Part shown: piece by piece, positions 3,497 through 53,835 of the stretch
How positions within the stretch are numbered: position 1 is the stretch's first letter
How the letters are laid out: each line of letters starts with the position of its first letter
NCBI RefSeq assembly: GCF_040436345.1
Contig: NC_133238.1
Coordinates: 14,779,147 to 14,843,146 of the forward strand
Direction: 5' to 3'
Origin: Pagrus major
Taxonomy: Eukaryota; Chordata; Actinopteri; Spariformes; Sparidae
Length of the DNA stretch: 64,000 bases
Notes under the pieces: generated by a model
Database searches by the model: none
What the model saw: only the letters and a program-made list of their open reading frames with translations
Told to the model about the DNA's origin: nothing
Position numbers and translations under genes: made by a program

Positions 3497-3986
3497 AAGT
3501 TATTGTGGAGACCAAAACAGTGTGATGAGCGTCCCACAGTAATGGCAGTGCCATCAATGATCCATCTCACACGTTTTAAGTGACAGTAACTACATTTCCA
3601 TTATGATGATGGTCTGTAATAAATAAACAAGTTGTTAAAGGAGCTTTATACAAAATCAATTCACTGCTAGTTGTCTAAGTTCTGCCCTGAAATCAAGCCA
3701 AGATCAATATTCTGTTTAAAAAGTGTTTTATTTTATTTGCAATATTTGCAGAGTTGTTGGCTCCACAAGCAGCTTTGGCACCGACTCCTGGATCTCAAGC
3801 TGGTCCCTGTAATGGACGACTGTGCCCCCCTGTGGACAGTCAGCCTGGACCAGGACCAGAACCAGAATCTGTTCTTCACCTGAAACCTGTTGATTCACCA
3901 TCGCTCCCATCTGAGCCTCCCCCATCCTCCCTCTCCTCTCAGCCTCCTCCCCCATCCTCCCTCTCCTCTCAGCCTCAGAAATGCTA

Positions 3987-5308: not shown

Positions 5309-5904
5309 CTAAACACCACACAGACACACGGAGGAACCAGGAATGGACCTGTAGAGCCCAAATCCAGGATAAAGAGGTTCAGTGAATGTGGTGCTGAAGG
5401 TGTGGAGGTGGATCAGTGAGTCAGAGGAGACTCTGTAGAAGGACAGAGTGCCAGCAGGACAGTCCACATACACTGCTACTCTACCAGAGGAGGAGGAGGA
5501 GGAGGAAGAGGAGGAGGAGGAGGAGGAGGAGAAGAAGGAGGAGAAGGAGGAGGAGGAGGAGATGTCTGTTTGTCTGTTATTGTGCCAGACAGAGTAACCA
5601 CCATAAACACACCACAGACTCCAGGACTGATCATTATATCCAAACTCACAGTCTTCACTGCCTCCTCTCCTTCTGATTCTTCTGTAACTCACTGATATAG
5701 AAACATGTCCTCTCCACTCGACCTCCCAGTAACAGCGACCAGTCAGACCAGTTCTACACAGCAGCTGAGACCAGTAGGACTCAAACCTCTCTGGATGATC
5801 AGGATATGACTGATCCTCTCTCACACGTCTCATCTTCCTGTTGTTGTCAGACAGTTTGATCTTTCTGCTGACTGTGTTTGTGTCGACTGTGAGCTCACAG
5901 GAAT
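5309..5904 (-). CDS. NLR terminal exon, PRY-SPRY (B30.2) domain
   Basis: The acceptor is TCTCTCCATCAG, and the exon opens in phase 1 so that TAT joins the preceding linker exon (KY|SCELTVD). PRY signature [10 protein letters not shown] and KLSDNNRK are followed by SPRY signatures [21 protein letters not shown] and PLYPGFG, then TAG at 5309. B30.2 is a protein-interaction domain, found at the C-terminus of many fish NLRs and TRIMs. In the loop before AVYVD there is a 20-plus residue Ser/Phe run encoded by a purine microsatellite. Otherwise the domain is intact with no stop, so the exon looks functional. Confidence 0.9.
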
Positions 5905-8900
5905 CTGATGGAGAGAAAAAGACACAACACAGCTGCAGTTATTAATGTATCATCAGTGTGGTGATGACATCACAGATGTGACTGAGTGATGTCACAGTGT
6001 GAAGCTGAATCAAAGTAAAAACACACTCACACTTCCTCAGACCTGGTGTCAACCATCGGACTCCAGCAGGCTCCACCCTGAAAGGAGGAGGGGGGTCAGA
6101 GCAGCACATCCTCTTTCAGCATGCAAACATGGACATGACATGACTCATACACAGAAACACAACATGTCCATCAGGCTGCTTCTCCCTGTTTCCCTGAACC
6201 TCTTCACCTCTGCCACTCTCCTCACACACTGAGAGTGAGCCACAGGATGTTGGTGTGTGTGAAAGAGGACGACAACATGTGAGGACACACACAAACCTCT
6301 GTTTGGATTCATGACTTCATCTTTATGTTATTGGATGTTGCTGCTGTTTCCTGTGGGCTACCTGACGCTTGCTGTCTGATCCAATGTCAGCTTGTGCTTA
6401 TGTTTGTATATTACAGGACTTTTGGATTTGGATGTCAGAACTTTTGAGGTCAGATTCCTGTTTGAAGCTTCCAGGGCTTTTCTGAATCTCACCTGCACAG
6501 TCTGCTTTTTGTTCTCGCTGTGTTTCTGCTGCTTTGTTTCACTGTGCAAAGAAACAAATACAGTTTATACGTAATAAATCATCAGGAAACGTTGGACGTT
6601 GGTTCCCGACCTCTGCCACAAAACCAAGAGACAGAGACTCCCAGACTGTTTCCCTCCAGAAGCTCACAAGTGTCACTGAAGCTGTTTGTGGTAGAAACAG
6701 CATCATTTCATGTGTTCATGTTCATGTTACTATAGTTTGGTGCTGGATTGATATCTGATGGATGTTACAGCAGTAATAGTTACTGTGAGGAGAACTTCAT
6801 GTCATGTTTGATGCCATTAAAACACAACAAATGACAGAACATGTCTCTTAGTGTGAAATCTGCTGTGGTAAACATGATGTGTCCAGATGTGACAGAGGAA
6901 CATCTGACTATGAAGCCAGGAATCTGTCTTTCTGTCTGTCTGTCTGTGGTCCACATGTCTCCAGAACCGTTCATCCAGTCTACTTTATACTTGGCAGGTT
7001 TGTTGCTGAGGACTCACAGAAGTGCAGCGTTGACTTTGAATTCAATGTTAGAAGTTTTTAGGGCCGCGACAACTGACCCATTAAATCCATTATAAAAACA
7101 GCTGCCGACCAGTTTCACGGTGGATTAGTTGGTTGACGTTACGATGCAGGCGCTGTGGCACGGAGCGAGCTGCTTCACTTCATAGTCAAAGACGGTCGAG
7201 CCGAAGATACGTCAGGAAAACACATTCAGTGCAGCAGTTCTGGTCTCCTGCGGTGGGGAGCAGTAAGCCAGCCAATGGCGCGCCTCGCCTAGCTCAGGTG
7301 ATGAAACAGGAAGCTACTCGGAGTCGCGCCATCTCCTTTCTGAATCGGCTCCGTTAGCATTTGCACTATAGCGGAGGCCACGGAGGCAACGGGAACTACA
7401 AACGTTACAGAAGAGAAAAGTGTACGAGCCAAGTCATCAAAAGTGGCAGCACTTTATATTAAAGTGTTCAAAGAAAACAGCTGCAAGATGTGCAGAGCTG
7501 CTCTCACATGGCACAGTAGCACCACATCACTGAGCAGCTGAAGAGAAAGCACGTCGGAGCCACTACGGGTGAAGGAGACTCGGCACGGTAACTTAGGAAA
7601 CCTTTCAAACCCAGAACCTGTCTACACTGATCCGTAGTGTCTGTCCCTTTAGCCACTGACTGTTCAGTGTTTTAATGAGCAGCAGTGTTTGTTTGTTGGA
7701 CAGGCTGACTGACAAAAGTTTGGACAGGATGAACTTTTGGAGCTGATGAACTTCATCCATTAGTAAACCTGTCGTTCCTGCAAACACAAGATTAGGGCCC
7801 GGCTACATCACAGCTTTCAATTTAAAAAGCAGCGTTTAAGACAGAAACACCTTCCACCTGTGCTCTCAGGTTTGTGATGGATCAGTGTCGCCCCCTGCTG
7901 GGTAATTAGCTGCAGTACGCTCAGAGACACTGGAGGACATAAGAGGAGTTTTTACAATATTTCATGTCATAGTAAGAGATCGTCTGAAGTCAAGTCTTTA
8001 TTTCTGCACAATAGAAACTTGAGCATATCTGTTCTGTTCAAATATATATTACATGTCCTTTTTATTCTCAGTGCACGGCTCAGGCTGCATTCACAATGTC
8101 CAGTTATTGTTTTATTTCATTTCCTAAATTCAAAAATGTCTTTATTGGCACCATGTAACACAAACATGTGGCCAAAGCAAGCGCACAAACATTGAGAAGA
8201 TAAAGAAGAAGAACATTCTGGTGTAAAGACGAGTACAGTAGATCAAAACACAACAGAGACAGAACTATAACCAAAGCTGACAATAACAGCACAACACTAA
8301 ATAATAAGTGTCGTCACATATAACATGAACAACTCTCAGCTGACTGTCACTCACTGTCCCTCAGTTTGTGGCAGCAGAACATAGACTGCTGCTGGATCAC
8401 AGCTCTTTGGGTTCTCCCCTAGTAGGACTGTTCATGTTTCTTCATCTACTGGCTCAACAAACCCTTTGTAATCTATTACATGTTGAACATGTGTTTCTCT
8501 AATGTGTTGATACTTTTCACATGTTGTGAGGAAGTGCTGCTCTGTTGTTGTTGTGTTTTATCGTACAGGCCTGATCTGTATTTGCCCTTTACATCAGCAC
8601 ATATTACCTCAAACAACAAGGCAGTTACTGAGTTCACTGAGCTTCATGTGAATTGTGCTACTCTGCATACTGATATTATATAATATTGTGTCTCTCACTT
8701 CACAAAGAAACAAGTCAACATGGGCGACTACGTTGTGAGGAAGGATGCCCCATGACACCACAGCCAGCAGCTGCTCTGACTGATGCTATCCTCAGTATGC
8801 TGCTAACACACATGAGGCCACTATCAATGGTGGAGGATGAAGGAGTGCTATGTGCACTTTAGAAAACAAACTATATTTAGGGCCCGAGCAGGGAACCTGC

Positions 8901-11900
8901 GAGGTCCCTATTGTTTTTCGAATGATTATTAGGGCCCGAGCAGTGAAACTGCGAGGACCCTATTGTAATTGTAATGATTATTATTAGGGCCCGAGCAGGT
9001 AAACCTGCGAGGTCCCTATTGTAATTGTAGTGATTATTATTTTTTTTTTTTTTTATTTTTCTTCTGCCAAAATGATCGCATTTTTCACTGCCTGAACATA
9101 CCCCAAAACTCATCAAACTTGGAATATATGTCACACCTGGTGAAAAATTTTATAATCTGTTGTCGTTGTGAATTTTCACCACTAGGTGGCGCTATAATCA
9201 AGGAAAGTGTGTTTTGGCTAATAACTCCCACATACTTTGTCGCACATTCAAAAACCTTACATCCACGCGTTCAGTGAATTGTGCTGAATCTCCTGATATA
9301 GGCCACGCCCATTTCCGCCTACCGTTTTTTTTCGCTAGCTCGCAAAATGTCAAAAACCTACTTTTTCGAACTCCTCCCAGGCAATTTCACCAATTTGCAC
9401 CAAACTTTGCACACAGCATCTGTGGACCCTCCTGACAAAAAGTTATTAAAAGAATTTTGCTATTCCAAACAATACTCAAGTTATTAAATAACAACTTCCT
9501 GTGGATTCGGGTCAAAACAGGAAGTGTTGCATATCTCCACATTGCTGTGTCCGAATGACGTGAAACTCAGGATACCACTTCCCCATGAGCCCCTAAGGCT
9601 GTGTGCAAAATCTTCGCCCATGACCACTAGGTGGCGCTATTTAAAATGAAGTATTTTATATCTCCACATCGGTTGGTGGGATTAACACAAAACTTGGTAC
9701 ACTCATTGCCACTGCCCTCCTGAGGATAGCTGACAAAGGGGTTACCGATCTGACACTAGGTGGCGCTCTGGTGGCAGTTTCATTTTATATTTGGCACTGT
9801 GCCCACACCATAACACTTATGGATATGAAACTGATTGGGGTGGTATAGACTGGCCCCTGTAACTCACACACCAAAAATGACCAGCAGGTGGCGCTATTAT
9901 CAAGAAATAAGGTTTTTTGCTAATTACTCCCACATAATATGGTGCACATCGTTAAACATTATATCTATATGTTCCCTGAATACAGCCGAACCGTGTGATG
10001 TAGGCCACGCCCACGTTCGCACTGAATTTCCATTCGCAAATTCGCCAAATGTCGCAAACCTACTTTTTCGAACTCCTCCCAGGCAATTTTTCCAATTTGC
10101 ACCAAACTTTGCACACAGCATCTGTGGACTCTCCTGACAAAAAGTTATTAAAAGAATTGTGATAGCCTAAAGAACGACCAAAATATAAAACAACAATTTC
10201 CTGCACGTTGTGGTAAACCACACAGTCTTGCATATCTTGATGAAATACAGTCCGATTAACACAAAACTTTTTTGATTTGTCTTCCATCCCCACATGAAGG
10301 TTTGTGCCAAATTCGGTGCATATCCACCAATAGGTGGCGCTTTTATTGCTAAATGACGAAATGACAGCTTGACTGCCTTCACTTTCATTTCCTCAATGGA
10401 AGTTGTTGCAAGTAGAAGCCCCGACAGCAGCATGTCACGACAGCAGCATGCCCCGACAGCAGCATGCCCCGACAGCAGCGCGCCCCGACAGCAGCACGCC
10501 CGACAACAGCATGCCCCGACAGCAGCACGCCCCGACGCGCGTGGACTGCGAGGGCCCGTTCATCGCTGCTTGCAGCTTTAATTAGGGCCCGAGCAGTGAA
10601 ACTGCGAGGACCCTATTGTTTTTGTAGTGATTATTAGGGCCCGAGCAGGGAACCTGCGAGGTCCCTATTGTAATTGCAATGATTATTAGGGCCCGAGCAG
10701 GGAACCTGCGAGGTCCCTATTGTAATTGCAATGATTATTATTATTATTATTATTATTATTTTATTCCTTCGTCCAAAATGATCGCATTTTTCACTGCCTG
10801 AATGTGAATGAAAAGTCAATTTTATTTGGCAAACACATTAGGCTTGGCGAAAAATTTTATAATCTGTTGTCGTTGTGATTTTTCACCACTTGGTGGCGCT
10901 ACAATCAAGGAAAGTGCGTTTTGGCTAATAACTCCCATATACTTTGTCGCACATTCAAAAACCTTATATCCACGCGTTCAGTGAATCGGGCTGAATCTCC
11001 TGATATAGGCCAGGCCCATTTTTGCCTATCGTGTTTTTTCGCTAGCTCGCGAAATGTCGCAAACCTACTTTTTCGAACTCCTCCCAGGCAATTTCACCAA
11101 TTTGCTCCAAACTTTGCACACAGCATCTGTGGACTCTCCTGACAAAAAGTTATTAAAAGAATTTTGATATTCCAAAGAATACTCAAGTTATTAAATAACA
11201 ACTTCCTGCAGATTTCGTTCCAAACAGGAAGTGTTGCATATCTCCACATTGGTTTGTCCAAATGACGTCAAACTCAGGATCCTACTTCCTCATGAGGTCC
11301 TAAGGCTCTATGCTAAATTTTGGTTGATGACCACTAGGTGGCGCTCTTTAAATTGAACTATTTTATATCTCGACATCGGTTGGTCGGATTAACACAAAAC
11401 TTGGTACACTCATTGCCAATGCCCTCCTGAGGATAGCTGACAAAGGTGTTACCGATCTGACACTAGGTGGCGCTTTGGTGGCAGTTTCTTTTTATATTTG
11501 GCACTGTGCCCACACCATAACACTTATGGATATGAAATTGACAGGGGTGGTATAGACTGGCCCCTGTAACTCACACACCAAAAACGACCAGCAGGTGGCG
11601 CTATCATCAACACAAACCGTTTTTGCCTAATAACTCCCACATACTTTGTCGCACATTCAAAAACCTTATATCCACGCGTTCAGTGAATCTTGCTGAATCT
11701 CCTGATATAGGCCACGCCCATTTGCGCCTAGCGTTTTTTTTTGCTAGCTCGCGAAATGTCGCAAACCTACTTTTTCGAACTCCTCCCAGGCAATTTCACC
11801 GATTTTCACCAAACTTTGCACACAGCATCAGTGGACCCTTCTGACAAAAAGTTATTAAAAGAATTTTGCTACGCCAAAGAACACTCAAGTTATTAAATAA

Positions 11901-14900
11901 GAACTTCCTGTGGACTCGAGTCTAAACAGGAAGTGTTGCATATCTCCACATTGGTGTGTCCAAATGACATGAAACTCTGGATACTACTTCCCCATGAGCC
12001 CCTAACGCTCTGTGCAAAATCTTGGCCCATGACCACTAGGTGGCGCTATTTAAATTGAAGTATTTTATATCTCGACATCGGTTGGTCAGATTAACACGAA
12101 ACTTGGTACACTGATTGCCAATGGCCTCCTGAGGACAGCTGACGAAGGTGTTACCGATCTGACACTAGGTGGTGCGCTGGTGGCAGTTTCATTTTATAAT
12201 TGGCACTGTGCCCACACCATAACACTTATGGATATGAAACTGATTGGGCCGGTATAGACTGGCATCTGTAACTCACACACCAAATATCACCAGCAGGTGG
12301 CGCTATTATCAACACAAAACCACTTTTTGGCTATCAGTTAAGACATGCGCGCACAATAACGGGGCAATGGGTCCGGGTAAGGAGCACGCCCCGACAGCAG
12401 CACGGCCCGAGCCGCGTGGCCTGCGAGGGCCCGTTCATCGCTGCTTGCAGCTTTAATTATTATTATTATTATTATTATTTTATTCCTTCGTCCAAAATGA
12501 TCGCATTTTTCACTGCCTGAATGTGAATGAAAAGTCAATTTTATTTGGCAAACACATTAGGCTTGGCGAAAAATTTTATAATCTGTTGTCGTTGTGATTT
12601 TTCACCACTTGGTGGCGCTACAATCAAGGAAAGTGCGTTTTGGCTAATAACTCCCATATACTTTGTCGCACATTCAAAAACCTTATATCCACGCGTTCAG
12701 TGAATCGGGCTGAATCTCCTGATATAGGCCAGGCCCATTTTTGCCTATCGTGTTTTTTCGCTAGCTCGCGAAATGTCGCAAACCTACTTTTTCGAACTCC
12801 TCCCAGGCAATTTCACCAATTTGCTCCAAACTTTGCACACAGCATCTGTGGACTCTCCTGACAAAAAGTTATTAAAAGAATTTTGATATTCCAAAGAATA
12901 CTCAAGTTATTAAATAACAACTTCCTGCAGATTTCGTTCCAAACAGGAAGTGTTGCATATCTCCACATTGGTTTGTCCAAATGACGTCAAACTCAGGATC
13001 CTACTTCCTCATGAGGTCCTAAGGCTCTATGCTAAATTTTGGTTGATGACCACTAGGTGGCGCTCTTTAAATTGAACTATTTTATATCTCGACATCGGTT
13101 GGTCGGATTAACACAAAACTTGGTACACTCATTGCCAATGCCCTCCTGAGGATAGCTGACAAAGGTGTTACCGATCTGACACTAGGTGGCGCTTTGGTGG
13201 CAGTTTCTTTTTATATTTGGCACTGTGCCCACACCATAACACTTATGGATATGAAATTGACAGGGGTGGTATAGACTGGCCCCTGTAACTCACACACCAA
13301 AAACGACCAGCAGGTGGCGCTATCATCAACACAAACCGTTTTTGCCTAATAACTCCCACATACTTTGTCGCACATTCAAAAACCTTATATCCACGCGTTC
13401 AGTGAATCTTGCTGAATCTCCTGATATAGGCCACGCCCATTTGCGCCTAGCGTTTTTTTTTGCTAGCTCGCGAAATGTCGCAAACCTACTTTTTCGAACT
13501 CCTCCCAGGCAATTTCACCGATTTTCACCAAACTTTGCACACAGCATCAGTGGACCCTTCTGACAAAAAGTTATTAAAAGAATTTTGCTACGCCAAAGAA
13601 CACTCAAGTTATTAAATAAGAACTTCCTGTGGACTCGAGTCTAAACAGGAAGTGTTGCATATCTCCACATTGGTGTGTCCAAATGACATGAAACTCTGGA
13701 TACTACTTCCCCATGAGCCCCTAACGCTCTGTGCAAAATCTTGGCCCATGACCACTAGGTGGCGCTATTTAAATTGAAGTATTTTATATCTCGACATCGG
13801 TTGGTCAGATTAACACGAAACTTGGTACACTGATTGCCAATGGCCTCCTGAGGACAGCTGACGAAGGTGTTACCGATCTGACACTAGGTGGTGCGCTGGT
13901 GGCAGTTTCATTTTATAATTGGCACTGTGCCCACACCATAACACTTATGGATATGAAACTGATTGGGCCGGTATAGACTGGCATCTGTAACTCACACACC
14001 AAATATCACCAGCAGGTGGCGCTATTATCAACACAAAACCACTTTTTGGCTATCAGTTAAGACATGCGCGCACAATAACGGGGCAATGGGTCCGGGTAAG
14101 GAGCACGCCCCGACAGCAGCACGGCCCGAGCCGCGTGGCCTGCGAGGGCCCGTTCATCGCTGCTTGCAGCTTTAATTAGGGCCCGAGCAGTGAAACTGCG
14201 AGGACCCTATTGTAATTGTAGTGATTATTATTTGTTTTTGTTTTTTTTTTCCTGCCAAAATGATCGCATTTTTCACTGCCTGAATGTGAATGAAAACGCG
14301 ATTTTATTTGGCAAAGTCATTAGGCTTGGCGAAAAATTTTATAATCTGTTGTCGTTGTGAATGTCCACCACTAGGTGGCGCTACAATCAAGGAAAGTGTG
14401 TTTTGCCTAATAACTCCCATATACTTTGTCGCACATTCAAAAACCTTATATCCACGCGTTCAGTGAATCTTGCTGAATCTCCTGATATAGGCCACGCCCA
14501 TTTCCGCCTACCGTTTTTTTTCGCTAGCTCGCAAAATGTCGCAAACCTACTTTTTCGAACTCCTCCCAGGCAATTTCACCGATTTGCACGAAACTTTGCA
14601 CGCTGCATCTGTGGACCCTCCTGACAAAAAGTTATTAAAAGAATTTTAATACACCAAAGAATACTCAAGTTATTAAATAACAACTTCCTGTGGATTCGAA
14701 TCACAACAGGAAGTGTTGCATATCTCCACATTGGTGTGTCCAAATAACGTGAAACTCAGGATACTACTTCCCCATGAGCCCCTAAGGCTCTGTGCAAAAT
14801 CTTGGCCAATGACCACTAGGTGGCGCTATTTAAATTGAAGTATTTTATATCTCAACATTGGTTAGTCGGATTAACACAAAACTTGGTACACTCATTGCCA

Positions 14901-17900
14901 ATGCCCTCCTGAGGATAGCTAACAAAGGGGTTACCGATCTAACACTAGGTGGCGCTCTGGTGGCAGTTTCATTTTATATTTGGCACTGTGCCCACACCAT
15001 AACACTTATGGATCTGAAATTCATAGGGGTGGTATAGACCAACCCCTGTAACTCACACACCAAAAATGACCAGCAGGTGGCGCAATTATCAAGAAAAAAA
15101 GTTTTTTGCTAATTACTCCCACATAATATGGTGCACATTGTTAAACCTTATATCTACCTCTTCCGTGAATACAGCTGAACCGTGTGATGTAGGCCACGCC
15201 CACGTTCGCACTGAATTTCCATTCGCAAATTCGCAAAATGTCGCAAACCTACTTTTTCGAACTTCTCCCAGGCAATTTCTCCGATTTGCACCAAACTTTG
15301 CACACAGCATCTGTGGACTCTCCTGACAAAAAGTTATTAAAAGAATTGTGATAGCCTAAAGAACGACCAAAATATAAAACAACAATTTCCTGCGCATTGT
15401 GGTCAAACAGACATTCTTGTGTATCTTGATGAAATGCAGTCCGATGAACACAAAACTTTTGGCAATTGTGTTCCATGGCACGATGAGCATTTCTACAAAA
15501 TTTCGTGCAAATCGACCAATAGGTAGCGCTTTTATTGCTAAATGACGAAATGACAGCTTCACTGCCTTCAGTTTTGATTCCTCTATGGAAGTTGTTGCAT
15601 GAACAAGCCTCGACAGCAGCATGCCCCGACAGCAGCATGTAACGACAGCAGCATGCCCCGACGGCAGCATGTCACGATGGCAGCACGCCCCGACCCGCGT
15701 GGACTGCGAGGGCCCGTTCATCGCTGCTTGCAGCTTTAATTATTATTTGTTTTTTGTTTTTTTTTTCTGCCAAAATGATCGCATTTTTCACTGCCTGAAC
15801 ATACCCCAAAACGCATCAAACTTGGAATATATGTCACACCTGGTGAAAAATTTTATAATCTGTTGTCATTCTGAATTTTCACCACTAGGTGGCGCTACAA
15901 TCAAGCTAAGTGTGTTTTGGCTAATAACGTCCACATACTTTGACGCACATCCAAAAACCTTACATCCACGCGTTCAGTGAATTGTGCTGAATCTACTGAT
16001 ATAGGCCACGCCCATTTCCGCCTACCGTTTTTTTTCGCTAGCTTGCGAAATGTAGAAAACCTACTTTTTCGAACTCCTCCCAGGCAATTTCACCGATTTG
16101 CACCAAACTTTGCACACAGCATCTGTGGACACTTCTGACAAAAAGTTATTAAAAGAATTTTGATACACCAAAGAAGACTCAAGTTATTAAATAACAACTT
16201 CCTGCAGATTTCGTTCCAAACAGGAAGTGTTGCATATCTCCACATTGGTGTGTCCAAATGACGTCACTCTCAGGATCCTACTTCCCCATGAGCCCCTAAG
16301 GCTCTGTGCAAAATCTTGGCCCATGACCACTAGGTGGCGCTCTTTAAATTTAAGTATTTTATATCTCCACATCGGTTGGTCGGATTGACGCCAAACTTGG
16401 TACACTCATTGCCACTGCCCTCCTGAGGACAGCTGATAAAGGGGTTACCGATCTGACACTAGGTGGCGCTCTGGTGGCAGTTTCATTTTATATTTGGCAC
16501 TGTGCCCACACCATAACACTTATGGATATGAAATTCATAGGGGTTGTATAGACTGGCCCCTGTAAGTCACACACCAAAAATGACCAGCAGGTGGCGCTAT
16601 TATCAAGAAAAAACGTTTTTTGCTAATTACTCCCACATAATATGGTGCACATTGTTAAACATTATATCTATACGTACCCTGAATACAGCCGAACCGCATG
16701 ATGTAGGCCACGCCCACGTTCGCACTGAATTTCCATTCGCAAATTTGCCAAATGTCGCAAACCTACTTTTTCGAACTCCTCCCAGGCAATTTCTCCAATT
16801 TGCACCAAACTTTGCACGCAGCATCTGTGGACCCTCCTGACAAAAAGTTATTAAAAGACATGTGCTAGTCCACAGAACGGCCAAAATATAAAACAACAAT
16901 TTCCTGCGCATTGTGGTCAAACAGATATTCTTGTGTATCTTGATGAAATACAGTCAGATGAACACAAAACTTTTGGCAATTGTGTTCCATGGCACGATGA
17001 GCATTTCTACAAAATTTCGTGCAAATCGGCCAATAGGTGGCGCTTTTATTGCTAAATGACAAAACAGCAGCTTCACTGCCTTCAGTTTTGTTTCCTCTAC
17101 GGAAGTTGTTGCATGAACAAGCCTCGACAGCAGCATGCCCGGACAGCAGCATGTAATGACAGCAGCATGCCCCGACAGCAGCACGCCCCGACAGCAGCAC
17201 GCCCCGACCCGCGTGGACTGCGAGGGCCCGTTCATCGCTGCTTGCAGCTTTAATTAGGGCCCAAGCAGGGAACCTGCGAGGTCCCTATTGTTTTTCGAAT
17301 GATTATTTATTAGGGCCCGAGCAGGGAACCTGCGAGGTCCCTATTGTTTTTCGAATGATTATTATTTTTTTTTTTTTTCTTCTGACGAAATGATCGCATT
17401 TTTCACTGCCTGAACATACCCCAAAACTCATCAAACTTGGAATATAGATCAGACCTGGCGAAAAATTTTATAATCTGTTGTCATTGTGAATTTTCAGCAC
17501 TAGGTGGCGCTATAATCAAGGAAAGTGTGTTTTGGCTAATAACTCCCACATACTTTGTCGCACATTCAAAAACCTTATATCCACGCGTTCAGTGAATCTT
17601 GCTGAATCTCCTGATATAGGCCACGCCCATATCCGCCTACCGTTTTTTTTCGCTAGCTCGCGAAATGTCGCAAACCTACTTTTTCGAACTCCTCCCGGGC
17701 AATTTCACCAATGTGCATGAAACTTTGCACACAGCATCTGTGGACACTCCTGACAAAAAGTTATTAAAAGAATTTTGATATTCCAAACAATACTCAAGTT
17801 ATTAAATAACAACTTCCTGTGGATTCGGGTCACAACAGGAAGTGTTGCATATCTCCACATTGGTGTGTCCGAATGACGTGAAACTCAGGACACTACTTCC

Positions 17901-23900: not shown

Positions 23901-26900
23901 GCCACGCCCATTTCCGCATACGGTTTTTTTTGCGCAAATTCATGAAATGTCGCAAACCTACTTTTTCGAACTCCTCCCAGGCAATTTCACCGATTTGCAC
24001 CAAACTTTGCACACAGCATCTGTGGACCCTCCTGACAAAAAGTTATTAAAAGAATTTTGATATTCCAAAAAATACTCCAGTTATTAAATAACAACTTCCT
24101 GCAGATTTCGTTCCAAACAGGAAGTGTTGCATATCTCCACATTGGTTTGTCCAAATGATGTCAACCTCAGGATCCTACTTCCTCATGAGGCCCTAAGGCT
24201 CTGTGCTAAATTTTGGTTGATGACCACTAGGTGGCGCTCTTTAAATTGAAGTATTTTATATCTCAACATCGGTTGGTCGGATTAACACAAAACTTGGTAC
24301 ACTAATTCCCAATGCCCTCCTGAGGATAGCTGACAAAGGGGTTACCGATCTGACACTAGGTGGCGCTCTGGTGGCAGTTTCATTTTATATTTGGCACTGT
24401 GCCCACACCATAACACTTATGGACATGAAATTCATAGGGGTGGTATAGAGTGGCCCCTGTAACTCACACACCAAAAATGACCAGCAGGTGGCGCTATTAT
24501 CAACACAAAGCAGTTCTTGGCTAATAACTCCCACATAATTTGTCACACATTGTTAAACCTTATATCTACCTCTTCCCTGAATTCAGCTGAATTGTGTGAT
24601 GTGGGCCACGCCCACGTTCGCACTGAATTTCCATTCGCAATTTCGCGAAATGTCGCAAACCTACTTTTTCGAACTCCTCCCAGGCAATTTCTCCGATTTA
24701 CACCAAACTTTGCACGCAGCATCTGTGGACCCTCCTGACAAAAAGTTATTAAAAGAAATGTGCTAGTCCACAGAACGCCCAAAATATAAAACAACAATTT
24801 CCTGCGCATTGTGGTCAAACAGACATTCTTGTGTATCTTGATGAAATACAGTCCGATGAACACAAAACTTTTCCCAGTTGTGTTCCATGGCACGATGAGC
24901 ATTTCTACTAAATTTCGTGCAAATCGACCAATAGGTGGCGCTTTTATTGCGAAATGACGAAACAGCAGCTTCACTGCCTTCAGTTTTGTTTCCTCTACAG
25001 AACTTGTTGCATGAACAAGCCTCGACAGCAGCATGCCCGGACAGCAGCATGTCACGACAGCAGCATGCCCCGACGGCAGCACGCCCCGACGCGCGTGGAC
25101 TGCGAGGGCCCGTTCATCGCTGCTTGCAGCTTTAATTAGGGCCCGAGCAGTGAAACTGCGAGGACCCTATTGTTTTTGTAGTGATTATTAGGGCCCGAGC
25201 AGGGAACCTGCGAGGTCCCTATTGTAATTGCAATGATTATTATTATTATTATTATTATTATTTTATTCCTTCGTCCAAAATGATCGCATTTTTCACTGCC
25301 TGAATGTGAATGAAAAGTCAATTTTATTTGGCAAACACATTAGGCTTGGCGAAAAATTTTATAATCTGTTGTCGTTGTGATTTTTCACCACTTGGTGGCG
25401 CTACAATCAAGGAAAGTGCGTTTTGGCTAATAACTCCCATATACTTTGTCGCACATTCAAAAACCTTATATCCACGCGTTCAGTGAATCGGGCTGAATCT
25501 CCTGATATAGGCCAGGCCCATTTTTGCCTATCGTGTTTTTTCGCTAGCTCGCGAAATGTCGCAAACCTACTTTTTCGAACTCCTCCCAGGCAATTTCACC
25601 AATTTGCTCCAAACTTTGCACACAGCATCTGTGGACTCTCCTGACAAAAAGTTATTAAAAGAATTTTGATATTCCAAAGAATACTCAAGTTATTAAATAA
25701 CAACTTCCTGCAGATTTCGTTCCAAACAGGAAGTGTTGCATATCTCCACATTGGTTTGTCCAAATGACGTCAAACTCAGGATCCTACTTCCTCATGAGGT
25801 CCTAAGGCTCTATGCTAAATTTTGGTTGATGACCACTAGGTGGCGCTCTTTAAATTGAACTATTTTATATCTCGACATCGGTTGGTCGGATTAACACAAA
25901 ACTTGGTACACTCATTGCCAATGCCCTCCTGAGGATAGCTGACAAAGGTGTTACCGATCTGACACTAGGTGGCGCTTTGGTGGCAGTTTCTTTTTATATT
26001 TGGCACTGTGCCCACACCATAACACTTATGGATATGAAATTGACAGGGGTGGTATAGACTGGCCCCTGTAACTCACACACCAAAAACGACCAGCAGGTGG
26101 CGCTATCATCAACACAAACCGTTTTTGCCTAATAACTCCCACATACTTTGTCGCACATTCAAAAACCTTATATCCACGCGTTCAGTGAATCTTGCTGAAT
26201 CTCCTGATATAGGCCACGCCCATTTGCGCCTAGCGTTTTTTTTTGCTAGCTCGCGAAATGTCGCAAACCTACTTTTTCGAACTCCTCCCAGGCAATTTCA
26301 CCGATTTTCACCAAACTTTGCACACAGCATCAGTGGACCCTTCTGACAAAAAGTTATTAAAAGAATTTTGCTACGCCAAAGAACACTCAAGTTATTAAAT
26401 AAGAACTTCCTGTGGACTCGAGTCTAAACAGGAAGTGTTGCATATCTCCACATTGGTGTGTCCAAATGACATGAAACTCTGGATACTACTTCCCCATGAG
26501 CCCCTAACGCTCTGTGCAAAATCTTGGCCCATGACCACTAGGTGGCGCTATTTAAATTGAAGTATTTTATATCTCGACATCGGTTGGTCAGATTAACACG
26601 AAACTTGGTACACTGATTGCCAATGGCCTCCTGAGGACAGCTGACGAAGGTGTTACCGATCTGACACTAGGTGGTGCGCTGGTGGCAGTTTCATTTTATA
26701 ATTGGCACTGTGCCCACACCATAACACTTATGGATATGAAACTGATTGGGCCGGTATAGACTGGCATCTGTAACTCACACACCAAATATCACCAGCAGGT
26801 GGCGCTATTATCAACACAAAACCACTTTTTGGCTATCAGTTAAGACATGCGCGCACAATAACGGGGCAATGGGTCCGGGTAAGGAGCACGCCCCGACAGC

Positions 26901-29900
26901 AGCACGGCCCGAGCCGCGTGGCCTGCGAGGGCCCGTTCATCGCTGCTTGCAGCTTTAATTTTTTGTTATTTTTTTTCTTCTGACGAAATGATCGCATTTT
27001 TCACTGCCTGAACATACCCCAAAACTCATCAAACTTGGAATATAGATCAGACCTGGTGAAAAATTTTATAATCTGTTGTCATTCTGAATTTTCACCACTA
27101 GGTGGCGCTACAATCAAGGCAAGTGTGTTTTGGCTAATAACGTCCACATACTTTGTCGCACATTCAAAAACCTTACATCCACGCGTTCAGTGAACTGTGC
27201 TGAATCTCCTGATATAGGCCACGCCCATTTCCGCCTACCGTTTTTTTTCGCTAGCTCGCGAAATGTCGAAAACCTACTTTTTCGAACTCCTCCCAGGCAA
27301 TTTCACCGATTTGCACCAAACCTTGCACACAGCATCTGTGGACCCTTCTGACAAAAAGTTATTAAAAGAATTTTGATACGCCAAAGAACACTCAAGTTAT
27401 TAAATAACAACTTCCTGTGGATTCGGGTCACAACAGGAAGTGTTGCATATCTCCACATTGGTGTGTCCGAATGACGTGAAACTCAGGACACTACTTCCCC
27501 ATGAGCCCCTAAGGCGCTGTGCAAAATCTTGGCCCATGACCACTAGGTGGCGCTATTTAAATTGAAGTATTTTATATCTCGACATTGGTTGGTCGGATTA
27601 ACACAAAACTTGGTACACTGATTGCCAATGTCCTCCTGAGGTCAACTGACGAAGGTGTTACCGATCTGACACTAGGTGGCGCTCTGGTGGCAGTTTCATT
27701 TTATAATTGGCACTGTGCCCACACCATAACATTTATGGATATGAAACTGATTGGGCCGGTATAGACTGGCCCCTGTAACTCACACACCAAAAATCACCAG
27801 CACGTGGCGCTATTATCAACACAAAGCAGTTTTTGACCAATAACTCCCACATAATTTGTCAGACATTGTTAAACCTTATATCTACGTGTTCCCTGAATTC
27901 ACCTGAATTGTATGATGTAGGCCACGCCCACTTTTGCGCAACATTTCCATTCGCAAATGCGCAAAATGTCGCTAACCTACATTTTCGAACTCCTCCCAGA
28001 CAATTTCTCCGATTTGCACCAAACTTTGCACGCAGCATCTGTGGACCCTCCTGACAAAAAGTTATTAAAAGAAATGTGCTAGTCCACAGAACGCCCAAAA
28101 TATAAAAAACAATTTCCTGCACATTGTGGTCAAACAGACATTCTTGTGTATCTTGATGAAATACAGTCCGATTAACACAAAACTTTTTCCAGTTGTGTTC
28201 CATGGCCACATGACGATTTCTGACAAATTTGGTGCAAATCGGCCAATAGGGGGCGCTTTTATTGCTAAATGACTAAATAACAGCTTGACTGCCTTCACTT
28301 TTGATTCCTCAACGGAAGTTGATGCATTAACAAGCCCTGACAGCAGCATGTAACGACATCAGCATGTAACGACGGCAGCACGCCGCGACAGCAGCACGCC
28401 GCGACGCGCGTGGACTGCGAGGGCCCGTTCATCGCTGCTTGCAGCTTTAATTATTAGGGCCCGAGCAGTGAAACTGCGAGGACCCTATTGTTTTTGTAGT
28501 GATTATTATTATTTGTTTTTTTTTTTTTTTTTCTGCCAAAATGATCGCATTTTTCACTGCCTGAACATACCCCAAAACGCATCAAACTTGGAATATATGT
28601 CACACCTGGTGAAAAATTTTATAATCTGTTGTCATTCTGAATTTTCACCACTAGGTGGCGCTACAATCAAGCTAAGTGTGTTTTGGCTAATAACGTCCAC
28701 ATACTTTGACGCACATCCAAAAACCTTACATCCACGCGTTCAGTGAATTGTGCTGAATCTACTGATATAGGCCACGCCCATTTCCGCCTACCGTTTTTTT
28801 TCGCTAGCTTGCGAAATGTAGAAAACCTACTTTTTCGAACTCCTCCCAGGCAATTTCACCGATTTGCACCAAACTTTGCACACAGCATCTGTGGACACTT
28901 CTGACAAAAAGTTATTAAAAGAATTTTGATACACCAAAGAAGACTCAAGTTATTAAATAACAACTTCCTGCAGATTTCGTTCCAAACAGGAAGTGTTGCA
29001 TATCTCCACATTGGTGTGTCCAAATGACGTCACTCTCAGGATCCTACTTCCCCATGAGCCCCTAAGGCTCTGTGCAAAATCTTGGCCCATGACCACTAGG
29101 TGGCGCTCTTTAAATTTAAGTATTTTATATCTCCACATCGGTTGGTCGGATTGACGCCAAACTTGGTACACTCATTGCCACTGCCCTCCTGAGGACAGCT
29201 GATAAAGGGGTTACCGATCTGACACTAGGTGGCGCTCTGGTGGCAGTTTCATTTTATATTTGGCACTGTGCCCACACCATAACACTTATGGATATGAAAT
29301 TCATAGGGGTTGTATAGACTGGCCCCTGTAAGTCACACACCAAAAATGACCAGCAGGTGGCGCTATTATCAAGAAAAAACGTTTTTTGCTAATTACTCCC
29401 ACATAATATGGTGCACATTGTTAAACATTATATCTATACGTACCCTGAATACAGCCGAACCGCATGATGTAGGCCACGCCCACGTTCGCACTGAATTTCC
29501 ATTCGCAAATTTGCCAAATGTCGCAAACCTACTTTTTCGAACTCCTCCCAGGCAATTTCTCCAATTTGCACCAAACTTTGCACGCAGCATCTGTGGACCC
29601 TCCTGACAAAAAGTTATTAAAAGACATGTGCTAGTCCACAGAACGGCCAAAATATAAAACAACAATTTCCTGCGCATTGTGGTCAAACAGATATTCTTGT
29701 GTATCTTGATGAAATACAGTCAGATGAACACAAAACTTTTGGCAATTGTGTTCCATGGCACGATGAGCATTTCTACAAAATTTCGTGCAAATCGGCCAAT
29801 AGGTGGCGCTTTTATTGCTAAATGACAAAACAGCAGCTTCACTGCCTTCAGTTTTGTTTCCTCTACGGAAGTTGTTGCATGAACAAGCCTCGACAGCAGC

Positions 29901-32900
29901 ATGCCCGGACAGCAGCATGTAATGACAGCAGCATGCCCCGACAGCAGCACGCCCCGACAGCAGCACGCCCCGACCCGCGTGGACTGCGAGGGCCCGTTCA
30001 TCGCTGCTTGCAGCTTTAATTTTTTTTTTTTTTTTTATTTGTCTGCCAAAATGATCGCATTTTTCACTGCCTGAACGTGTATGAAAACGCGATTTTATTT
30101 GGCAAACACATTAGGCCTGGCGAAAAATTTTATAATCTGCTGTCGTTGTGAACTTTCATCACTAGGTGGCGCTATAATCATGGAAAGTGTGTTTTGGCTA
30201 ATAACTCCCACATACTTTGACGCACATTCAAAAACCTTACATCCACGCGTTCAGTGAATCTTGCTGAATCTCCTGATATAGGCCACGCCCATTTCCGCCT
30301 ACCGTTTTTTTCCGCTAGCTCGCGAAATGTCGCAAACCTACTTTTTCGAACTCCTCCCAGGCAATTTCACCGATTTGCACCAAACTTTGCCCACAGCATC
30401 TGTGGACCCTTCTGACAAAAAGTTATTAAAAGAATTTTGATACGCCAAAGAACACTCAAGTTATTAAATAACAACTTCCTGTGGATTCGGGTCACAACAG
30501 GAAGTGTTGCATATCTCCACATTGGTGTGTCCGAATGACGTGAAACTCAGGACACTACTTCCCCATGAGCCCCTAAGGCTCTGTGCAAAATCTTGGCCCA
30601 TGACCACTAGGTGGCGCTATTTAAATTGAAGTATTTTATATCTCAACATCGGTTGGTCGGATTAACACAAAACTTGATACACTGATTGCCACTGCCCTCC
30701 TGAGGACAGCTGACAAAGGTGTTACCGATCTGACACTAGGTGGCGCTCTGGTGGCAGTTTCTTTTTATATTTGGCACTGTGCCCACACCATAACACTTAT
30801 GGATATGAAATTCATAGGGGTGGTATAGACCGGCCCCTGTAACTCACACACCAAAAATCACCAGCAGGTGGCGCTATTATCAAGAAAAAACGTTTTTTGC
30901 TAATTACTCCCACATAATATGGTGCACATTGTTAAACATTATATCTATATGTTCCCTGAATACAGCCGAACCGTGTGATGTAGGCCACGCCCACGTTCGC
31001 ACTGAATTTCCATTTGCAAATTCGCCAAATGTCGCAAACCTACTTTTTCGAACTCCTCCCAGGCAATTTCTCCGATTTGCACCAAACTTTGCACGCAGCA
31101 TCTGTAGACCCTCCTGACAAAAAGTTATTAAAAGAAATGTGCTAGTCCACACAACGCCCAAAATATAAAACAACAATTTCCTGCGCATTGTAGTCAAACA
31201 GACATTCTTGTGTATCTTGATGAAATACAGTCCGATGAACACAAAACTTTTGGCAATTGTGTTCCATGACACGATGAGCATTTCTACAAAATTTCGTGCA
31301 AATCGACCAATAGGTGGCGCTTTTATTGCTAAATGACGAAATGACAACTGGACTGCCATCAGTTTTGATTCCTCTATGGAAGTTGTTGCATGAACAAGCC
31401 CCGACAGCAGCATGTAACGACAGCAGCATGTAACGACAGCAGCATGCCCCGACGGCAGCACGCCCCGACCCGCGTGGACTGCGATGGCCCGTTCATCGCT
31501 GCTTGCAGCTTTAATTATTATTATTTTATTCCTTCGTCCAAAATGATCGCATTTTTCACTGCCTGAATGTGAATGAAAATGCGATTTTATTTGGCAAAGT
31601 CATTAGGCTTGGCGAAAAATTTTATAATCTGTTGTTGTTGTGAATGTGCACCAGTAGGTGGCGCTATTATCAAGGAAAGTGCGTTTTGGCTAATAACTCC
31701 CACATACTTTGTCGCACCTTCGAAATCCTTATATCCACACGTTCAGTGAATTGTGCTGAATCTCTTGATATAGGCCACGCCCATTTCTGCTTTGCGTTTT
31801 TTTCACTAGCTCGTGCAATGTCGCAAACCTACTTTTTCGAACTCCTCCCAGGCAATTTCACCAATTTGCACCAAACTTTGCACACAGCATCTGTGGACCC
31901 TCCTGACAAAAAGTTATCAAAAGAATTTTGATATTCCAAAAAATACTCAAGTTATTAAATAACAACTTCCTGCAGATTTCGTTCCAAACAGGAAGTGTTG
32001 CACATCTCCACATTGGTTTGTCCAAATGACGTGAAACTCAGGCTACTACTTGCTCATGAGGCCCTAAGGCTCTGTGCTAAATTTTGGTTGATGACCACTA
32101 GGTGGCGCTATTTAAATTGAAGTATTTTATATCTCGACATCGGTTAATCGGATGAACACAAAACTTGGTACACTCATTGCCACTGCACTCCTGATGACAG
32201 CTGACAAATGGGTGACCGCTCTGACACTAGGTGGCGCTTTGGTGGCAGTTTCTTTTTATATTTGGCACTGTGCCCACACCATATTACTTATGGATATGAA
32301 ATTGACAGGGGTGGTCTAGACCGGCCCCTGTAACTCACACACCAAAAATGACCAGCAGGTGGCGCTATCATCAACACAAACCGTTTTTGCCTAATAACTC
32401 CCACATACTTTGTCGCACATTCAAAAACCTTGTATCCACGCGTTCAGTGAATCTTGCTGAATCTCCTGATATAGGCCACGCCCATTTGCGCCTAGCGTTT
32501 TTTTCCGCTAGCTCGCGAAATGTCGCAAACCTACTTTTTCCAACTCCTCCCAGGCAATTTCACCGATTTTCACCAAACTTTGCACACAGCATCAGTGGAC
32601 CCTTCTAATCTAAAAGTTATTAAAAGAATTTTGATACGCCAAAGAATACTCAAGTGATTAAATAACAACTTCCTGTGGATTTGGGTCACAACAGGAAGTG
32701 TTGCATATCTCAACATTGGTGTGTCCAAATGACGTGAAACTCAGGATACTACTTCCCCATGAGCCCCTAAGGCTCTGTGCAAAATCTTGGCCCATGACCA
32801 CTAGGTGGCGCTATTTAAATTGAAGTATTTTATATCTCGACATCGGTTGGTCGGATTAACACGAAACTTGGTACACTCATTGCCAATGGCCTCCTGAGGA

Positions 32901-35900
32901 CAGCTGATGAAAGTGTTACCGATCTGACACTAGGTGGCGCTCTGGTGGCAGTTTCATTTTATAATTGGCACTGTGCCCACACCATAACACTTATGGATAT
33001 GAAACTGATTGGGCCGGTATAGACTGGCATCTGTAACTCACACACCAAATATCACCAGCAGGTGGCGCTATTATCAACACAAAACCACTTTTTGGCTATC
33101 AGTTAAGACATGCGCGCACAATAACGGGGCAATGGGTCCGGGTAAGGAGCAGCACGGCCCGACCCGCGTGGCCTGCGAGGGCCCGTTCATCGCTGCTTGC
33201 AGCTTTAATTTACTTTTGCATTCTTCATGTAACAAACATTTTAGAGGTGTGAATCTTCACCGGCCTCACGATTCCATTACGATTCAGCTGTCGACGATTC
33301 TCGATGCATCTCAGTGTTCGTCATCCTCGATGATCTGTATCACTGCACACGGCTACTTTTCATCATTTAAATCCCCCTTTTATTCTGAAAGTCCTTCCAA
33401 TAATCAGACTACAGCAGGCTACAAAATAAAAGCTGCATCTTTTCAGTAATCAAACAAAACATGTCTCCATCTGCAGCGTCAACAATCAACATGAGCTGCA
33501 GACTCTGGATTCTGCTCTGTCTCTGCATCGTGATGCATCTTATAATGGAGACATTTTCACACCTCTAATACATTTATGTTGCTTTTACACTTTGAAGTTG
33601 TTTGAAAGTGAACTGAACAAGACTAAAGAGGAAAATGTGACAGCAATGTTTTATTTTTTAATAAAATGCTGGAAATATAAAAGAAATCAGCTTTTGTCTT
33701 TTCATGTGATTAATGGGTTATGAAAATAGTTGTTAGCTGCAGCCCTATAATTAGTGCCAACAAACACTACTCTGTGTTGTGTTGGTAGGAGTGAGTCTCT
33801 CCGGTATGTGACAGAGCTACGAGCACGTTGCTGCAGTCACAGTAAAGTGCACGCTGTTATTACTGTAGTCGGCCATAAAGGGTGTGGATGGACTCAGTTA
33901 GTAACTGAAACCATGTGTGTTGTTTGCTGCCACAGAAGAGAAATTAAAAGTCCATTCATGCAACGTTGTCACGCCATCTTCCTGCATTTAACACTTCCTA
34001 TACATCCTTCTCAATAAAGGTCCTGCATTATGTAGTTATTTGAAAGCTTTTATTGTGAAGCATCAAAATCAGGAAACATTGGATTTCCACCAGCAGAACC
34101 TGAACACGACTCCAGAACAGCTGAAGTGAAGCTGAGTCAGCAGCTACGAGCCAGGCTGAAGTACATTACAACAGCATTAAACCAGAGGTCCACCAGCTAC
34201 TGTAGAGAGCTGCAGCTCTGCACAGGTCACATATCATGTTAATCAATGGAGCAGATGATTGATCGCTGAATGTTTTCTTTTCTTTTGTCATTTGATTTTG
34301 CTGACGGTGCAAAACACTGAAACTTTCCTGCCCCTGCAGGCTGTTATAATGAGAACTACCCAAAACAGCCCAAACTCAGCTGGAGCAGCAGTTTCCTCAT
34401 GACAGGAGCCAAGACGGCACCACTGACCCATCTTAAATTAACCTATGCACTGCTGCTGTTATGGTGATGTGACGGGAATGTTCCACCTTGTGTCATCTAA
34501 CGTTGTTATTGGACTGTTTTATATCTTCTGTTCACTTTAAACTGATGCCACAGACAGTTGTTACAGTCTGTAAATGGTTTCACACTGAGGCACAGATACA
34601 CTTGTCAGTGATGATCTAGAATGCAGTTACTCCAGTGCTGATAAAGATCCATGTCAGAACCATTTTAAGTTCAAAGTCAAGCACTTTGGCAGAAACACTG
34701 ATTCTCCAGTTCAGGGAAAGAGTTTCTATGACATTCAGTGATTAAATTCATTTATGTGTCACAGAAATCTTTTGAATTTGAGGTTCAGTATTTTCTGATC
34801 AGACATCTGACACAGAGGGTCTATTGTTATTATTAATATCATAACACAGCAGTGACGTGGTGGATTTAATGGTGGTAGATTTAATGTTAATGTTTTGATA
34901 ACTCTCTGCAATCAGTGTGGAGTATGAAGGAGTTCGGATGACGGTTCTTCAAGCAGCAAAACCAGAGGCCAACAAATCAAACAGGCACATTTTGAACAGG
35001 CACTAAACTAGTCTGAAAAAAGAGGTGTAACTTTAGTGTTTGTGCAAAGACTCTCCTGGTCTTCTTCTCATCTTCCTCTCTTCACTTGTAACTCTTGGCT
35101 TCATGCCATGCTGCCTTTTCTCCTGAACTGAACTGAACAACTGGAGGTGGAGTAAACGAAGCAGACCTCCTGACACTGAACCATCTACACTCGAGATACA
35201 GACTCTCACACTGACTGTCTGTGGCTGCAGCAGGACTCTTCATACCTGAGAGTGTCCAGTCTGCAGCCTGGATCCTCCAATCGAGCAGACAGCAGCTTCA
35301 CTCCTGAGTCTCCTGGATGATTGTAGCTCAGGTCCAGCTCTTTCAGATGGGAGGGGTTGGAGTCCAGAGCTGAGGCCAGAGAAGTACAGCCTTCCTCTGT
35401 GATCAGGCAGCCTGACAGCCTGCAGACACACAAAACAACACACATCACAGATCAGCTGAGGGTCCTGATGATTCAGTGCACATCTGTGTTTAAGGGTTTA
35501 ACGTTTATTATATTTATCATCTTAATTTCACTAATTTACTTATCAGCACTAAACCCAGAGTATAACTGAAGATGACGGAAATGCCATTAGTTTTGCAAAT
35601 ACTTGGTCATGAACCAACATATTGTACAGATTAAAATGATGACCTGATGATGGAGGATCACCAAAGTAATTACAGTTCATCCTGAGGGGAGCACGAATGT
35701 CAAAAACCTCATGGCAATCCATCCAATGGTTGTTAAGATCAGTAAGTCGGGACCAAAGTGCAGAATAGACTGATAGACCCACATTTTATATATATAAATA
35801 GATTAGTGGTTTCATTGGTTTTGTATTGTTACTTTGATGAGTGAAGGATCTGTTAAGTTGTCAGACTGTGAACACTATCAGAACATCACACTCCTGTCCA

Positions 35901-53770: not shown

Positions 53771-53835
53771 TAAATGATAACAAACAATTATGATTTATCT
53801 AAAATATGTTCATGATTTTATTTTATTCTCAACAG

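Follow-up and report, generated by a model that had tools for sequence, protein, structure and literature searches.

In a 64,000-nucleotide stretch of the Pagrus major genome (contig NC_133238.1, positions 14,779,147 to 14,843,146; hereafter the window), we found a 24-kb array of 15 head-to-tail units that resemble transposable elements of the HINE (Helentron) type. The array holds 83 near-consensus CTCF-like motifs which all face the same way, occur in five sequence contexts, and are mostly retained in diverged relatives of the element. We interpret the array as a tandemly amplified HINE-type element that carries its own CTCF sites and is likely CTCF-bound and boundary-like, and in our judgment the chances that this interpretation is right are about even. 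CTCF binding, looping and boundary function of the array are what we infer from the analyses below.

To delineate the array, the units were cut at a conserved 34-bp tail. This gave 15 units of 1492-1875 bp each, 11 with five motifs and 4 with seven (11x5 + 4x7 = 83), as the original prediction had estimated (about 83 motifs, five per short unit and seven per long unit). The predicted array (8879..33210) had the same end, while its start was found 2 bp further left. The edges were sharp, the share of repeated 12-mers dropping to about 0 in the bins on either side (left of 8800, right of 33200). The array opens with a head (described below) and closes with a tail, both of which adjoin unrelated sequence. 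Motif density in the array is one per 0.29 kb, and GC content in 1-kb windows over 9001-33000 is 41-46%. The array and its units are as follows.

8877..33210, + strand: whole array, 15 head-to-tail units with 83 CTCF-like motifs, every one on the + strand
8877..10583, + strand: unit 1, 5 motifs; begins with three heads and a T-rich tract, followed by the inner repeats, the 16-bp minisatellite and the tail
10584..12458, + strand: unit 2, 7 motifs
12459..14177, + strand: unit 3, 7 motifs, headless; shares 1719 bp of identical sequence with parts of units 2 and 11
14178..15741, + strand: unit 4, 5 motifs; shares 1501 bp of identical sequence with part of unit 8
15742..17255, + strand: unit 5, 5 motifs, headless; shares 1499 bp of identical sequence with part of unit 13
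17256..18854, + strand: unit 6, 5 motifs
18855..20424, + strand: unit 7, 5 motifs
20425..21988, + strand: unit 8, 5 motifs
21989..23491, + strand: unit 9, 5 motifs, no head
23492..25137, + strand: unit 10, 5 motifs
25138..26960, + strand: unit 11, 7 motifs
26961..28452, + strand: unit 12, 5 motifs, no head
28453..30021, + strand: unit 13, 5 motifs
30022..31516, + strand: unit 14, 5 motifs, no head
31517..33210, + strand: unit 15, 7 motifs, no head; the last unit

Three sets of units (2/3/11, 4/8 and 5/13) are near-identical, the identity spanning 1499-1779 bp. The remaining five-motif unit pairs are about 5-11% different and are interleaved with the near-identical ones. The near-identical units presumably reflect either recent copying inside the array or duplication in the assembly.

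We then counted the CTCF-like words. In 8879-33210, exact CCASYAGRKGGCRSY was found 45 times on the + strand and 0 times on the - strand, and with at most one mismatch the counts were 77 and 0. When up to three mismatches to CCACTAGGTGGCGCT were allowed, 83 sites were found in the array and all 83 were on the + strand, as had been predicted. The prediction that roughly half of the motifs are exact and the others mostly one base off also held, since 45 of 83 (54%) were exact, 32 were one base off and 6 were further away. The motifs fall into five classes, of which one example each is given.

9179..9193, + strand: class A motif, CCACTAGGTGGCGCT
9624..9638, + strand: class B motif, identical at the B1 position in 15 of 15 units
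9753..9767, + strand: class C motif, ACACTAGGTGGCGCT
9881..9895, + strand: class A2 motif, CCAGCAGGTGGCGCT
10327..10341, + strand: class D motif, CCAATAGGTGGCGCT

The class consensus sequences differ at positions 1, 4 and 5 only; the CTCF consensus is degenerate at positions 4 and 5 and not at position 1.

The motifs were scored with a 19-column CTCF matrix that includes the flanks (a manually entered version of JASPAR MA0139.1). All 83 + strand sites passed p 1e-4, 80 passed 1e-5 and 75 passed 1e-6 (a threshold of 17.5 bits), while on the - strand of the array 3 sites passed p 1e-5 and 0 passed 1e-6. The 27 sites with CCACTAGGTGGCGCT and the 16 sites with CCAGCAGGTGGCGCT averaged about 24.6-24.8 of a possible 28.2 bits. 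With the 15 core columns at 12 bits or more, the array had 80 hits on the + strand and 4 on the - strand, and the rest of the window had 2 and 4. In 40 first-order Markov simulations of the array, the mean number of hits at 12.7 bits or more was 0.23 on the + strand and 0.25 on the - strand, with a largest value of 2. Thus, with the flanking columns included, 80 of 83 sites score at p 1e-5 against about 0.2 in simulated sequence. A chance origin of the motifs was rejected on the basis of the strand counts (45 versus 0) and of matrix hits far above the simulation. In the remaining 39.7 kb outside the array, p 1e-5 was passed by 2 sites on the + strand and 3 on the - strand, including two strong reverse sites left of the array.

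1180..1198, - strand: reverse CTCF-like site left of the array, 23.2 bits
7886..7904, - strand: reverse CTCF-like site to the left, 19.7 bits, in divergent orientation relative to the array

The motifs also vary less between units than the rest of the sequence. In a sample of 9 non-duplicate five-motif units, mean pairwise diversity was 0.023 over the 75 motif columns versus 0.081 elsewhere (P 0.008), so that the motifs do not diverge as fast as their surroundings. Five randomly placed windows matched the motif diversity in 0.8% of draws, and windows shifted 15 to 45 bp off the motifs had a diversity of 0.053-0.114. The tail had a diversity of 0.0065 (lowest 1.2%), lower than that of the motifs. 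Among motif CpGs, 44 were kept and 1 had decayed to TG/CA, while elsewhere, with the tail omitted, 389 were kept and 82 had decayed (Fisher P 0.005). Across the five contexts the 15-mer was 90% identical, whereas the 60-bp ungapped flanks were 27% and 33% identical. Gapped upstream homology exceeded z 2 in only 2 of 10 context pairs, B-C (60/91, z 8.2) and C-D (54/90, z 3.3), and common descent of all five contexts was therefore not established. Since the flanks are dissimilar and gapped homologies are few, the same word stands in diverged or unrelated contexts.

The motifs are spaced according to an inner repeat of 702 bp that bears sites A, B and C (445 + 129 + 128). Units with five motifs hold one inner copy and a diverged part of a second, while those with seven hold two inner copies and the start of a third. 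In unit 2, inner copies 1 and 2 are identical in 585 of 719 alignment columns, and in unit 1 blocks A and A2 are homologous downstream (320/439 columns). At the unit front stand zero to three copies of a head, TTAGGGCCCGAGCAG..CTGCGAGGNCCCTATTG.., repeated each 52-56 bp; a pattern search found 17 heads in the array, and heads are absent from 6 of 15 units (3, 5, 9, 12, 14 and 15). Behind the head lies an (ATT)n or T-rich tract. Most units have a 16-bp minisatellite near the end, followed by the tail GAGGGCCCGTTCATCGCTGCTTGCAGCTTTAATT, which is present in 15 of 15 units (14 exact, 1 with one mismatch). Examples of these parts are as follows.

10584..10614, + strand: head, with the 5' sub-terminal inverted repeat AGGGCCCGAGCAG and the adjacent complementary repeat CTGCGAGGACCCT; hairpin
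10734..10765, + strand: (ATT)n microsatellite behind the head
10418..10536, + strand: 16-bp minisatellite (GCCCCGACAGCAGCAT) before the tail
10550..10583, + strand: tail, 34 bp, with the 3' sub-terminal repeat GAGGGCCC and the palindrome GCTGCTTGCAGC

What kind of element carries the motifs was judged from these parts. A canonical Helitron has 5' TC and 3' CTRR and is inserted between A and T. As read by eye, the unit ends (TTAGGGCC... and ...CTTTAATT) have no 5' TC and no 3' CTRR, and the reverse reading also has no 5' TC; a canonical Helitron was therefore rejected. A HINE is a non-autonomous Helentron whose defining parts have been described (PMC4067079, PMC7492417). They run from a 5' sub-terminal repeat and a complementary repeat close to it, through a microsatellite and central tandem repeats, to a 3' sub-terminal repeat and a short 3' palindrome; HINEs insert at T-rich sites without duplication, and whole elements may be tandem (PMC4067079, PMC7492417).

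We found that the array unit has the HINE parts in the HINE order, two of the end features being statistically weak. The 5' inverted repeat AGGGCCCGAGCAG, with its complementary CTGCGAGGNCCCT, lies 2 nt inside the start of the first unit as set here; in a HINE it would be expected 2-4 nt from the end. The 5' hairpin is firm, with a DNA fold z of -3.3 and -2.3 in the two heads that were folded; for the head at 10584..10614 (z -3.3), 0 of 200 shuffles were equally stable. The (ATT)n tracts and the 702-bp inner repeats supply the microsatellite and the central tandem repeats. The tail matches the inner repeat of the head at 11 of 12 bases (P 0.001), and all 15 tails show the palindrome GCTGC-TT-GCAGC 7 nt before the end. 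HINEs insert at TT and leave the target site unduplicated; the insertion flanks here, read with no empty site for comparison, are ...CTATAT before TTAGGG on the left and TACTT behind ...TTTAATT on the right. An Rfam scan of the window returned 0 families at threshold. Because the parts and their order match, though the 3' features are weak, we call the unit HINE-like, and it is quite probably a true HINE. The original prediction had described the array as satellite-like; it is indeed tandem, but rather than a free-standing macrosatellite the unit looks like a tandemly amplified HINE-type transposon.

The array unit and Cg_HINE of the Pacific oyster are alike in part order, T-rich flanks and possible whole-element tandems (PMC4067079, PMC7492417). 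However, the inner repeat here is 702 bp long while the dominant oyster monomers are 160-180 bp, and the host here is a vertebrate. The inner repeat here is also loaded with CTCF-type motifs, while CTCF has 0 mentions in PMC7492417 (PMC4067079 was not searched for CTCF). In addition, some inner copies here have no head, whereas PMC7492417 describes truncation at the 3' end.

Diverged relatives of the element were found among database proteins as its accidental open reading frames (ORFs), seven in one frame and one in another, all from ENA contigs. These relatives are non-coding ORFs and possibly related to one another. Outside the motifs, alignment identity was 619 of 939 residues (66%). Seven of the eight relatives span motif-homologous places (P0121 spans none), nine places in total, and 35 of 39 informative residues there were kept (Fisher P 0.0014); three weak off-frame P0126 rows were dropped from this count. 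The sites kept were B in 5 of 5 (one changed), C in 2 of 2 (one changed) and A2 in 1 of 1. Position 5 of the B site is biased (TAG replaced in the reverse frame), because the relatives were found as stop-free frames. In P0124, the head words stand behind the core, in array order. The 766-bp contig behind P0123 may hold a rearranged copy, because tail-like words read in the + sense precede core words in the - sense. In P0125, a poly-Leu tract is inserted after the A-site region and before the start of the interior, elsewhere than the ATT tract of the window.

We also scanned DNA collections for the element. A head pattern that matches the window itself 14 times had 0 matches in viral contigs, the tail had 0 matches in viral and genome contigs, and an inner word had 0 in viral contigs. 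The bare 15-mer had 23 single matches in viral contigs, which were taken as chance without a computed expectation. When viral contigs were scanned with protein guidance, none of the 24 candidates was confirmed. Absence from the scanned DNA collections means little, because these collections are viral and prokaryotic.

The array probably lies within a 31-kb intron of one NLRC3-like gene, since one protein matches both flanking exons and splice-like signals bound 5905-36927. One NLRC3-like protein from Pagrus major, P0007, is matched by the NACHT exon at 94% and by the SPRY exon at 80%; other percomorph proteins score nearly as high. The leucine-rich repeat (LRR) exons are also on the - strand. 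The predicted location of the array inside an NLR intron is thus probable from exon matches and splice-like signals.

5312..5904, - strand: PRY-SPRY exon of the NLRC3-like gene, preceded by the splice-acceptor-like TTTTTCTCTCCATCAG
5905..36927, - strand: presumed LRR-to-SPRY intron holding the array, GT..AG by eye
39593..41416, - strand: FISNA-NACHT-winged-helix-HD2 exon, probably of the same gene

The zinc-finger cluster mentioned in the original prediction corresponds to three C2H2 reading frames about 17-28 kb right of the array. These frames (49850-51001, 53781-55379 and 60074-61312) share an N-terminal DVQLL...PPEQ...PHIKEEQ segment, which we take to resemble the fish FiNZ domain. Other features were noted in the neighborhood. 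At 36923-37958, the LRR exon region contains 2.4 tandem copies of a 426-bp unit with 96% matches, a recent LRR exon duplication. A 75-bp GAG tract (5487-5561) in the SPRY exon gives a long serine run in the SPRY domain, and the serine run of the Pagrus major protein is shorter. At a distance of about 0.6 kb, the SPRY exon has a minisatellite of about 27 copies of a 27-bp unit (3981-4707). A short inverted-repeat element (AGAGGTGTGAA...TTCACACCTCT) at 33243-33566, which starts about 30 bp beyond the right end of the array, is by eye like a hAT-type miniature inverted-repeat transposable element.

We propose that one copy of the element landed at a T-rich site in the intron between the LRR and SPRY exons. 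Rolling-circle transposition, unequal exchange or both would then have produced the head-to-tail copies, and some of the copying within the array would be recent. CTCF would bind many of the motifs when unmethylated, and loop-extruding cohesin arriving from the right would be stalled by the array. The stalling would be one-sided because all motifs share one direction. By convention, a forward CTCF motif anchors loops to its right. The array would anchor a stripe of contacts that covers the zinc-finger genes as well as the NACHT exon; together with the reverse sites at 1180 and 7886 it would make up a boundary-like cluster of divergent sites. Retention of the sites probably served the element in the first place, and the boundary would be a by-product at the locus.

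Published work bears on several of these steps. The CTCF core motif is nearly identical across the species compared, including lamprey (PMC5504073). A divergent CTCF cluster is a common but not required signature of boundaries (PMC9279147), and boundaries of topologically associating domains in zebrafish favor convergent motifs (PMC8438036). At Dxz4, a mostly unidirectional motif bank sets the direction of contacts, and its inversion reverses them (PMC5899087).

Several observations weigh against our interpretation. Single motif windows rank only among the lowest 9-32% of windows, and none of the eight non-overlapping invariant 24-bp windows in the 11 five-motif units is a motif (one is in the tail). 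Because such invariant non-motif windows exist, the motifs are some among several conserved pieces. The competing word ATTAACACAAAACTT was about equally frequent in 3 of 4 units tested. As to the HINE assignment, the 3' sub-terminal repeat matches the 5' one at only 10 of 12 bases within 60 bp before the 3' end (P 0.03, weak), the two tails that were folded (z -0.6 and -0.1) were no more stable than shuffles, and unit 9 as a query found no second copy in the flanks of the array within the window. Among the relatives, the sole A-type site (P0125) was lost, with 3 of 5 residues kept, and the P value for residue retention rose to 0.003 when P0128 was left out, to 0.013 when the weak A2 alignment of P0126 was left out and to 0.027 when both were. 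Right of the array, no reverse site in the window passed p 1e-5. Finally, methylation could block CTCF binding because every class consensus contains a CpG, and the proposed mechanism would fail chiefly through methylation at this motif CpG; in zebrafish, only 1-4% of CpGs in transposable elements are lowly methylated (PMC9341505).

The last point leads to an alternative that we regard as a real possibility, though one short of even chances: the array may be a transposon-derived satellite whose genuine CTCF-type motifs reflect the past of the family and are silent here, being methylated, heterochromatic and unbound. Zebrafish transposable elements of all classes are highly methylated (PMC9341505), and the lamprey hAT family that is strongly CTCF-bound is reported to have motifs without CpG (PMC5504073), while all five class consensus sequences here hold one. 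However, decay of 1 of 45 motif CpGs versus 82 of 471 elsewhere would be unexpected if the motifs were steadily methylated and unselected, and the p 1e-6 threshold is still exceeded by 75 of the 83 sites. The near-fixed spacings of the 15-mer (445, 129 and 128 bp), in one orientation and in every unit, together with a tail that is likewise conserved, would also suit an iteron of the element, i.e., a site for the Rep-helicase or another transposition protein, with the likeness to CTCF coincidental. We consider this quite unlikely in view of the 80 matrix hits in five sequence contexts, where about 0.2 per strand would be expected, and of the fact that two of the three class-variable positions (4 and 5, though not 1) are degenerate in the CTCF consensus; we know of no rolling-circle element whose internal iterons are spaced at 128-445 bp.

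The sites might also be targets of another host protein, such as a rapidly evolving C2H2 zinc-finger repressor of transposons. Fish C2H2 zinc-finger genes are thought to track transposons, and three such genes lie to the right of the array. Nevertheless, the whole 19-column CTCF matrix fits the sites, and the target of a repressor would be expected to diverge rather than stay conserved in the element, which makes this explanation very unlikely. It is likewise unlikely, if a little less so, that the tandem count is partly an artifact of assembly, with units 2/3/11, 4/8 and 5/13 being misassembled duplicates. Units are identical across 1499-1779 bp, as misassembly would produce, but the other five-motif pairs differ by about 5-11% and are interleaved with them, and both ends of the array have unique flanks. 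The multi-unit array is therefore real, although its length is uncertain.

Known systems that resemble the array include the CTCF repeat systems of mammals. DXZ4/Dxz4 likewise has tandem CTCF motifs mostly of one polarity (PMC3218863, PMC5899087, PMC6985041), with motif copies estimated at 10-100 in human and 14 in mouse (PMC5899087) versus 83 here. DXZ4 has 3-kb units, about 62% GC and an X-linked location (PMC3218863, PMC5899087, PMC6985041), while the array has 1.5-1.9-kb units, 41-46% GC, five to seven motifs per unit and no known link to a sex chromosome. The array thus has no GC-rich 3-kb unit with high CpG, and, although CTCF-YY1 site pairs belong to DXZ4, a rough scan for three simple YY1 words gave 0 matches on either strand. 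Firre/ICCE has CTCF-recruiting repeats in transcribed genes, and the intronic Firre R0 resembles the probable setting of the array (PMC4820808, PMC6985041, PMC5899087). However, R0 is without a canonical CTCF motif while the array motifs are near-consensus, and Firre has similar motif numbers in either orientation (PMC5899087) while the array is one-directional. The original prediction had proposed a fish counterpart of DXZ4 and Firre; the one-polarity tandem motifs are in line with it, but unit size, GC content and the lack of a YY1-like word speak against membership. Because these DXZ4 features are absent, the array at most works like DXZ4/Firre.

The tRNA variable number tandem repeat at human 1q23.3 is also a variable tandem CTCF-binding array and a proposed boundary, with a motif common to human and mouse; unlike the array, it has 7.3-kb units with tRNA genes and no transposon (PMC4041453). 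Transposon families carrying CTCF sites include zebrafish SINE3-1a and HATN9_DR (PMC9341505) and lamprey hAT-Tip100 (PMC5504073). In the available text of these papers they are not described as tandem arrays, whereas the present element is of rolling-circle type and forms a dense array with five to seven sites per copy. Thus, transposon-borne CTCF sites and tandem CTCF arrays were already known separately, while a rolling-circle-type element that bears five to seven directional sites in each copy of a dense array was not among the literature matches listed. Judged from titles and the openings of abstracts, no Helitron-type element and no fish tandem array with CTCF motifs was among these matches either, a coverage without most subscription papers and without Repbase, so priority is unproven.

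The best-known directional CTCF arrays are mammalian and X-linked. If our interpretation holds, a transposon that forms tandem arrays, with five to seven same-facing, near-consensus sites in each copy, would show how a strong boundary can come about in a single step, and its presence or absence between fishes would be a natural test of whether the number and direction of motifs suffice to build one. Copies of the NLR cluster may then be insulated or mis-insulated by such arrays. It is further conceivable, though rather unlikely in our estimate, that a vertebrate rolling-circle lineage keeps a directional CTCF battery for its own biology and that its arrays seed one-way loop anchors in immune clusters. 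The benefit to the element could lie in staying open in the germ line, or in the use of cohesin and CTCF during amplification. If so, the arrays of this lineage would be a transposon-built functional counterpart of Dxz4 in the fast-evolving immune-gene clusters of fishes.

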